This document shows positions 16,344-21,535 of a stretch of DNA of 64,000 bases, one piece after another. The notes under the pieces were generated by a model. It was given only the letters and a program-made list of their open reading frames with translations, was not told where the DNA came from and searched no databases. How positions within the stretch are numbered: position 1 is the first letter of the stretch; each line of letters begins with the position of its first letter. This stretch comes from Fermentimonas sp. (GTDB taxonomy: Bacteria; Bacteroidota; Bacteroidia; Bacteroidales; Dysgonomonadaceae): assembly GCA_028709385.1 (NCBI GenBank), contig JAQVXD010000007.1, positions 1 through 64,000 on the forward strand, written 5' to 3'. The position numbers and the translations under genes were made by a program.

Positions 16344-18647
16344 ATGACAAATAACAAGCTGCGTGAAGATGCCCTTGACTATCATTCTCAGGGGCGTCCC
16401 GGAAAAATTGAGGTATTACCTACCAAACCATATAATTCTCAACATGATTTATCTCTTGCATACTCGCCCGGAGTTGCTGAGCCTTGTCTGGAAATAAAGA
16501 AAGATCCTGGGGCTGCATATAAATATACTGCTAAGGGAAACCTGGTTGCAGTGATATCTAACGGTACGGCTGTACTGGGACTTGGGGACATTGGTGCCGT
16601 GGCGGGAAAACCTGTAATGGAGGGAAAGGGGTTACTCTTTAAAATATTCGCGGGTATTGATGTTTTTGATATTGAGGTGAATGAGAAGGATCCTGAGAAG
16701 TTTGTCCAGATAGTTAAAGCAATTTCCCCTACTTTTGGTGGTATAAATCTGGAAGATATTAAGGCTCCGGAGTGCTTTGAAATTGAGGAGAGACTTAAAG
16801 CTGAACTCGATATACCTATTATGCATGACGATCAGCACGGTACGGCAATTATTTCGGCATGCGGACTACTTAACGCATTGGAACTTAACGGCAAAAAGAT
16901 TGATGAAATAAAGATTGTAGTTAACGGTGCTGGCGCAGCGGCTAATTCCTGTACCAAACTATATATTGCATTAGGGGCTAAGCTTGAGAATATTGTGATG
17001 GTTGACTCAAAAGGTGTTATCAATAAATCGAGAACAGACCTTAACGAGCGTAAAAAACCTTTTGCTACAGACAGAAATATTACTACTCTTGAAGAGGCTG
17101 TGAATGGTGCAGATATGTTTCTGGGTCTGTCTGTTGCTGATGTACTTACTACAGATATGGTGAAATCAATGAGTAATGATCCCATAGTTTTTGCTCTTGC
17201 CAACCCTAACCCTGAAATCTCATATGAGCTTGCCATGAGTGCAAGAGAAGATATTATTTTCGCAACCGGCCGTTCGGATCATCCTAATCAGATTAATAAT
17301 GTACTTGGATTTCCTTATATCTTCAGAGGGGCATTGGATGTTCAGGCAACTTGTATAAATGAGGAGATGAAAATTGCTACTGTTTATGCTCTGGCTGATC
17401 TAACTAAAAAGGCTGTTCCTGATGTGGTTAACACAGCTTACAGCATTAAGAAATTAAGTTTTGGCAGAGACTATATAATACCAAAACCACTGGATCCCAG
17501 ACTGCTGACTTCTGTAGCTCCTGCAGTGGCAAAAGCTGCAATGGAATCAGGTGTAGCGCGTAAACCTATTGAAGACTGGGAGGCTTATGATCATAAGCTG
17601 CGCGACCTGATGGGACTTGACAACAAAATGGTTCGCAGGTTATACGAAATGGCACGTCAAAATCCTAAGCGTGTTGTGTTTTCTGAAACTAACCACCTTA
17701 ATATGCTTAAGGCTGCGGAAACAGCTTATGCTGAAGGTATATGCCGACCAATATTGTTAGGTAATGAGGAGAAAATAGCTAATGTTGCAAAGGAGAACCA
17801 GATTAGTCTGGAAGGAATAGAGATTGTAAATCTTCGTCATGACCGTGAAGAGGAGCGCAGACAGCGTTATGCAAAAATACTTACTGAAAAGAGAGAGCGT
17901 CAGGGAATGACTTTTGAAGAAGCTGCTGAGAAAATGTTCGAGAGAAACTATTTTGGCATGATGATGGTTGAAACCGGTGAAGCAGATGCAATGATAACAG
18001 GTGTTTTCAGTAAATATGCCGATACAACCGAAATAGCTAAAGAGGTGATTGGCATTCGCGATGGACTTGGACACATAGGTGCAATGCATATTGTAAATAC
18101 TAAAAAAGGTATGCTGTTTCTTGCTGATACTCTTTTTAACCGACATCCTGATACTGAAACTTTGATTGACATTGCACGACTTGCAGATGCAACTGTAAAA
18201 TTCTTCAATCATGATCCTGTTATTGCAATGGTTTCATATTCCAATTTCGGAGCAGATTCAGTAGGCAGCCCTGCCAGTGTACATCAGGTAGTGGAAACTC
18301 TTCACGAAAGATACCCTGAAATGGTTGTTGACGGTGAGATGCAGGTTAACTATGCACTTAATAAGGAATTGAGAGATAAGAAGTATCCTTTTACACGTTT
18401 ACGCGATAAAGATGTAAACACTCTTGTTTTTCCAAACCTGAGTTCAGCTAACTCTTCTTATAAACTATTGAAAGAAACTGGTAAGAATGATATAATTGGT
18501 CCTATACAGATGGGATTAAACAAACCAGTGCACATTCTAGATGTGGAAACTTCGGTGCGTGATATCGTAAATATGGTTGCTGTTGCGGTTATAGACGCAA
18601 TTGTTGAAGAAAACATCAGATTGAATAACTTATCCAGAATAATTTAA
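16344..18647 (+). CDS. maeB: NADP-dependent malic enzyme with C-terminal phosphotransacetylase-like domain
   Basis: [15 protein letters not shown]...[23 protein letters not shown] plus a PTA-like domain ([34 protein letters not shown]); 767 aa. Confidence 0.95.
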
Positions 18648-20113: not shown

Positions 20114-20145
20114 TTTGGTTATTACATAAAGAGCAGTTATCTTTG
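20114..20145 (+). promoter_or_regulatory. Bacteroidota-type promoter driving the 20.15 kb ncRNA candidate
   Basis: TTTG (20114-20117), N20, TATCTTTG (20138-20145). Confidence 0.7.
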
Positions 20146-20151
20146 GAATAC

Positions 20152-20354
20152 AAAAATGATGAAGTTATTGCCGCATTGGTCGATTGGGGAACTCATCAAT
20201 TAAATTTTATAAACCGAGACTCGTTCTTCGTTTCAATGGCGGGCCGCAGCCTTCGGGATTCCGATTTATCGGAACAGCGGATTACAAAGAAACAAAGGCA
20301 CTCAAATCCTGTCAAACGGAGTTTCGTCTTATTCCACCGGTGCGGCTTCTCATA
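20152..20354 (+). ncRNA. Structured RNA candidate, rod-like with a central bubble (6S RNA-like)
   Basis: 20170-20180 pairs with 20336-20346 (11 bp with GU), 20188-20194 with 20319-20325, 20226-20234 with 20289-20297 (one mismatch), 20244-20247 with 20277-20280, 20259-20263 with 20270-20274; promoter upstream and terminator downstream. Confidence 0.5.
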
Positions 20355-20402
20355 GAAAGCAGATTAGCAATAGATTTAGTCAAAATTGCAATCTGCTTTT
20401 CA
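20355..20402 (+). terminator. Terminator of the ncRNA candidate
   Basis: gaaagcagattagcaa...ttgcaatctgctttt hairpin. Confidence 0.7.
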
Positions 20403-20419
20403 TTTTATATACCCCTTAT

Positions 20420-20977
20420 ATGAATCTTGCAAAACAATATTGGGAACTATTTCTGGTATTCTTTAAAATTGGAGCCTTTACTTTTGGGGGCGGTTATGCC
20501 ATGATTCCACTCATACGCAACGAGGTTGTAAATAAAAAGAAATGGCTTGGTGATAACGAATTTATGGATATGCTGGCATTAGCACAATCTGTTCCCGGTC
20601 CTATATCACTTAATACAGCAATATTTGTAGGAAATAAAAGACTTGGTTTTAAAGGGAGTCTGTTTACAGGTGCAGGTGTAATTCTTCCTTCATTTGTGGT
20701 AATACTCCTTATTGCGATATTATTCACCCAGTTTAAGGACAATCCGGTAATTGAACGTATTTTTAAAGGTATCCGACCAGCAGTTGTTGCACTTATTGCG
20801 GCACCTCTTCTGGGTTTAGGAAAATCAGCCGGAGTCAAATTAAACAATATTTGGATTCCAATTGCTGTTGCCCTTTCAGTTTGGCTTTTAAAAGTTTCTC
20901 CCGTATATATTATTTTAATCTCAATTATTTTAGGGATCCTCTATTTTCTATTCATTAAACTTAAATCGAAAAAGTAA
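20420..20977 (+). CDS. Chromate transporter, half-size CHR domain protein
   Basis: FFKIGAFTFGGGYAMIPLIRNEVV...LALAQSVPGPISLNTAIFVG. Confidence 0.93.
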   Translation: MNLAKQYWELFLVFFKIGAFTFGGGYAMIPLIRNEVVNKKKWLGDNEFMDMLALAQSVPGPISLNTAIFVGNKRLGFKGSLFTGAGVILPSFVVILLIAILFTQFKDNPVIERIFKGIRPAVVALIAAPLLGLGKSAGVKLNNIWIPIAVALSVWLLKVSPVYIILISIILGILYFLFIKLKSKK

Positions 20978-21535
20978 ATGGAGTTGATGGATTTATACCT
21001 GCAGTTGTTTGTATCATTCATTAAAATCGGACTGTTCGGTTTCGGCGGCGGCTATGCAATGCTTCCTCTTATTCAGAGAGAAGTAGTTGATATACATGGA
21101 TGGATTAGTGTAAGCGATTTTACTGATATAGTGGCAATTTCACAGACAACCCCGGGTCCGATAGCCTTTAACTCTGCCACGTATATAGGCTACACAGCTG
21201 TTACTGAGGCAGGGTTCTCGACAGGTTACGGGATATTGGGATCAGCTGTTTGCACATTGGCTGTCAGCATCCCGTCACTTATATTAATGACATTGGTTTG
21301 CACATTCTTTTTCAGACTCAACAACAACCCATGGTTACAAGCTTCTTTGTCGGTCTTAAAACCTGCTATAATAGGTTTAATTGCTTCTGCAGCACTAATG
21401 TTGATGAACGGACATAATTTTGTTGACTATAAAAGCTGGATAATTTTCGGTGCAGTAATGATAGCATCAATTAAGAAGGTTGATCCTATACTATTGATTG
21501 TATTGTCGGGTGTTGCAGGACTAGTATTGTACTAA
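20978..21535 (+). CDS. Chromate transporter, half-size CHR domain protein
   Basis: FIKIGLFGFGGGYAMLPLIQREVV...VAISQTTPGPIAFNSATYIGY; starts directly after the preceding stop. Confidence 0.93.
   Translation: MELMDLYLQLFVSFIKIGLFGFGGGYAMLPLIQREVVDIHGWISVSDFTDIVAISQTTPGPIAFNSATYIGYTAVTEAGFSTGYGILGSAVCTLAVSIPSLILMTLVCTFFFRLNNNPWLQASLSVLKPAIIGLIASAALMLMNGHNFVDYKSWIIFGAVMIASIKKVDPILLIVLSGVAGLVLY

Follow-up and report, generated by a model that had tools for sequence, protein, structure and literature searches.

A single 6S-Bacteroidales RNA gene with a covariation-supported rod structure in a Fermentimonas genome

6S RNA acts as a global brake on transcription, and knowing its exact gene is therefore useful for annotation, here of Proteiniphilum and its relatives. 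The closest described RNA is Bacteroidales-1, published in 2010 among 104 candidate structured RNAs (Weinberg and colleagues, 2010; PMC2864571) and catalogued in Rfam as RF01693 with the label "6S-Bacteroidales RNA suggested". Passages of a dRNA-seq study of Bacteroides thetaiotaomicron describe a 6S RNA together with two classes of product RNA, and credit the 6S prediction to a 2014 survey of 6S RNA across bacteria (PMC7366714). That this RNA is the RF01693 RNA is our own reading of the passages concerned, in which the accession does not appear.

In the window, i.e., the whole 64,000-nucleotide stretch of Fermentimonas sp. DNA that was analyzed, an Rfam scan returned only two matches, one tRNA and RF01693. 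The RF01693 match has a score of 138.9 bits against a gathering cut-off of 60 (E = 3.6e-23) and covers model positions 1 to 179 of 179. An earlier note, made from the letters of the window alone, had proposed a 6S-like RNA here, and with a full-length match so far above the curated cut-off this proposal is supported. Its fall-back of another, undescribed RNA class was wrong, since RF01693 has been described and the RNA class at the locus is already known. The sequence itself establishes family membership as well as fold, promoter and terminator: the features of the 6S class found here are a covariation-backed rod with a closing stem, a large internal bubble and an apical stem, plus, at the sequence level only, a housekeeping-sigma promoter and a terminator of its own. 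We are highly confident that the locus is a single 6S RNA gene (RF01693, 6S-Bacteroidales), predicted to be transcribed from its own housekeeping promoter into an RNA of at most about 250 nt, a rod whose internal bubble is rich in A+U. Neither of the other 6S models recognizes it. The general model RF00013 (6S / SsrS) gave no match in the genome at E ≤ 10 nor in a 451-base stretch at E ≤ 1, while RF01685 (6S-Flavo) gave none at the RNA locus and had its best match elsewhere in the genome at E = 3.96; a second 6S gene was thus not found in the genome with these two models. In view of these results, what supports the 6S identity is the architecture, together with the experiment in Bacteroides. 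The features of the locus are collected in Table 1.

Table 1. Coordinates of the RNA gene, its structural elements and its neighbors in the window.
Feature	Position	Strand	Basis or remark
TrpB-like pyridoxal-phosphate enzyme gene, PF00291	18696-20048	+	upstream neighbor
Bacteroidota-type housekeeping promoter TTTG-N20-TATCTTTG (-33/-7 boxes)	20114-20145	+	sequence and conservation in relatives
Probable primary transcript (5' leader, 6S-Bacteroidales RNA, terminator)	20151-20400	+	predicted from promoter and terminator positions
6S-Bacteroidales RNA (RF01693 Bacteroidales-1)	20169-20353	+	138.9 bits, full model
Closing stem, 5' strand	20170-20180	+	pairs with 20336-20346; outer pairs well supported
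Second closing helix, 5' strand GGAACTC	20188-20194	+	pairs with GAGTTTC 20319-20325
Probable central bubble, 5' side, A+U-rich	20195-20215	+	unpaired in covariation-supported structure; putative role
Apical rod	20216-20303	+	refined rod; overlaps paired part of Rfam consensus
Apical rod helices, outer	20216-20218/20301-20303, 20223-20225/20297-20299, 20227-20234/20289-20296, 20237-20238/20285-20286
Apical rod helices, inner	20244-20247/20277-20280, CC-TTCG-GG 20250-20257, 20259-20264/20269-20274
Probable central bubble, 3' side	20304-20318	+	unpaired in covariation-supported structure; putative role
Second closing helix, 3' strand GAGTTTC	20319-20325	+	98.3% of cells paired
Closing stem, 3' strand	20334-20346	+	inner end 20334-20335 pairs with 20178-20179
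Intrinsic terminator hairpin GAAAGCAGATT...AATCTGCTTTT	20355-20400	+	MFE -18.1 kcal/mol, z -4.8
Chromate transporter genes, PF02417	20420-20977 and 20978-21535	+	downstream neighbors

The stems drawn in the earlier note are all present, i.e., 20170-20180/20336-20346, 20188-20194/20319-20325, 20226-20234/20289-20297, 20244-20247/20277-20280 and a ttccg/cggaa apical hairpin at 20259-20263/20270-20274. An alignment of 41 distinct relatives shows that they are real. With this structure 93.5% of the cells are paired, compared to 83.4% in shuffled alignments and 38-48% in slid controls with one side displaced by 1-3 columns, and two-sided changes occur in 23 of its 36 pairs against 13.7 in the shuffles; none of 500 shuffles attained any of the five measures. 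The proposed search for compensatory changes in the named stems was therefore positive. Support is strongest at the outer end of the closing stem, where the seven outermost pairs are paired in 100% of the 41 relatives and six of the seven show two-sided changes. At the inner end of the 11-bp stem, 17 of the 41 relatives do not form the pair 20178-20338. A better fit is obtained with 20178/20335 and 20179/20334, which are 88% paired and show two-sided changes; the stem as claimed thus holds for its outer pairs but not for its inner end. The second closing helix, GGAACTC/GAGTTTC, is nearly invariant, which is consistent with pairing but leaves no visible covariation.

A refined rod of 45 pairs has 95.0% of the cells paired and 26 pairs with two-sided changes, values reached by 0 of 500 shuffles. 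This rod was derived from a sequence set that largely overlaps the test set, so the slid control somewhat favors it; the structure of the earlier note, which was drawn from one sequence only, passes the control as well. Folding of the single sequence 20150-20370 gave z = -0.94, i.e., not more stable than shuffles, and the minimum-energy fold adopts an alternative helix. Energy alone thus neither proves nor disproves the rod, and the structural support is comparative.

For the 6S bubble, the earlier note pointed to a loop of 7 nt opposite 10 nt (20181-20187 opposite 20326-20335), but this is probably a smaller break within the closing stem. Just inside the second helix lies a larger A+U-rich loop, which is unpaired in the refined rod. 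Measured against the general architecture of 6S RNAs, the larger loop is probably the better candidate for an open-promoter mimic. By analogy with studied 6S RNAs, we infer that the RNA in the window may bind polymerase and give rise to product RNA. The rod would imitate an open promoter and bind RNA polymerase together with its housekeeping sigma factor, which would lower transcription when nutrients run out or in stationary phase, and the 6S RNA would be released once the polymerase has used the bubble as template for a short product RNA. A more specific scheme, which we consider doubtful, is that the second helix serves both as product-RNA template and as half of a switch, such that a product RNA occupying 20184-20197 would allow GAGTTTC to re-pair with CGAGACTC (20215-20222) and free the polymerase. 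In constrained folding of the window sequence, this alternative helix has a mean pair probability of 0.77 when free and 0.92 with the 5' strand blocked. However, the probability exceeds 0.5 in only 12 of the 41 relatives, so the re-pairing stays a suggestion, and the switch was rejected as a general feature.

The promoter claimed in the earlier note consists of TTTG at 20114-20117, a 20-nt spacer and TATCTTTG at 20138-20145, which we take to be the Bacteroidota -33/-7 promoter consensus. In 53 of 70 distinct relatives the pattern TTTG-N17..23-TA-N2..3-TTTG is conserved upstream of the RNA; elsewhere across these loci it turns up about once per 11 kb (79 matches in 298 kb, those 53 included). 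In three loci of the same genus (L008, L012 and L018), the RNA is intact, but some 70-130 nt ahead of the conserved ATGGCGGGCC block unrelated sequence stands in place of TTTG-N20-TATCTTTG, possibly due to an insertion between promoter and RNA gene. Transcription would start about 6 nt past the -7 box. The terminator claim holds as well, as the hairpin is strong, is followed by T-rich sequence and has a similar counterpart at the same place in relatives. A scan for consensus promoters and terminators detected neither element because it was built for E. coli-type boxes and for loops of 8 nt at most.

The source genome has one copy of RF01693, as have 35 of the 36 congeners that were searched, and neither the near relatives nor the order-level search gave more than one match per genome. 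Among 61 near relatives, the source genome counted in, 41 have a match and 40 have one above the cut-off. The search of 295 genomes of the order gave 84 with a match, 62 above and 22 below the cut-off. Neither RF01693 nor a model of the rod has a match in about 70% of the sampled order genomes, whose completeness is at least 90% in all but the source genome; their 6S RNA is either absent or too diverged for the models and filters used.

The RNA lies between a TrpB-like gene and two chromate transporter genes, and this position is fixed within Dysgonomonadaceae. The TrpB-like protein has its best matches in Proteiniphilum, Petrimonas and similar Bacteroidales, which points to a Proteiniphilum-like source genome. 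Further upstream (16344-18647), the window encodes a 767-aa protein in which a malic enzyme is joined to a phosphate acetyltransferase-like domain, as is common in bacteria. As the RNA shares its strand with a transporter gene that begins shortly after it, and as a chromate transporter gene follows in 45 of the 49 loci having the TrpB-like gene upstream (some genomes counted twice), it might be seen as a leader or attenuator of the transporter genes (20420-21535) and not as a free RNA. However, a strong terminator hairpin separates the RNA from the transporter gene, and outside Dysgonomonadaceae neither the TrpB-like nor the transporter gene was found beside the RNA within 1.5 kb flanks. Neighbors that differ between families indicate a free-standing gene, and we consider a leader very improbable. 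Even less credible is a small protein gene, although two ORFs of 70 and 79 aa are open over the RNA in the window. When the frames are read ungapped starting at a conserved anchor, only 4 of 71 readable sequences (with the window's own counted) lack stops in the 70-aa frame, and the 79-aa frame is interrupted in most relatives. No Pfam match was found for either ORF. The missing ORF conservation refutes such a gene, and compensatory base changes speak against it as well. The view of the earlier note that the stretch has no convincing coding content is thereby upheld, as no protein is conserved among the homologues.

This leaves the possibility that RF01693 is a structured Bacteroidales RNA with a function other than that of 6S RNA, e.g., binding a different protein. 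The missing matches to RF00013 and RF01685 would agree with this, as would the invariant blocks ATGGCGGGCC and GGATTACA, which are conserved beyond what pairing needs. On the other hand, the rod with its A+U-rich bubble, the single copy per genome and the RNA's own housekeeping promoter speak against such a function, and product RNAs are described for B. thetaiotaomicron in the passages concerned (PMC7366714). We therefore consider a function outside the 6S class unlikely, and prefer the 6S RNA gene.

The Rfam consensus of RF01693 pairs only the inner part of the RNA, whereas the outer parts form a covarying closing stem in relatives. A covariance model built on the full rod and run over the same 295 order genomes, as a partly independent test, located mostly the same places as the RF01693 search. 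Weak RF01693 matches outside the training set rose from 34.0 to 55.9 bits (G284), 41.0 to 70.6 bits (G173) and 34.2 to 53.8 bits (G135). A few others, e.g., G040, were not recovered by the rod model in the 295 genomes, so not every sub-threshold RF01693 match need be real. Covariation for the outer rod is only a small addition to what is known, but it could go into the Rfam model, and a rod-based model gives firmer scores for weak members in other Bacteroidales families.

Compared with known systems, the locus shares with RF01685 that both are 6S candidates of Bacteroidota, though that model has no match at the RNA locus. With the 6S / SsrS RNAs of E. coli and B. subtilis (RF00013) it has in common the rod with closing stem, central bubble and apical stem, and a single gene with its own promoter, while its conserved sequence is another one and the covariance model finds no match in the source genome. 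The B. thetaiotaomicron 6S RNA gene belongs to the same bacterial order; according to the passages concerned, it is known there by dRNA-seq and its product RNAs were seen (PMC7366714), and the gene in the window is its counterpart predicted from sequence. Closest is RF01693 itself, with a full-length match above the cut-off and shared conserved blocks and apical stems, and it differs in that the outer parts left unpaired in its consensus form the closing stem and second helix here in relatives.
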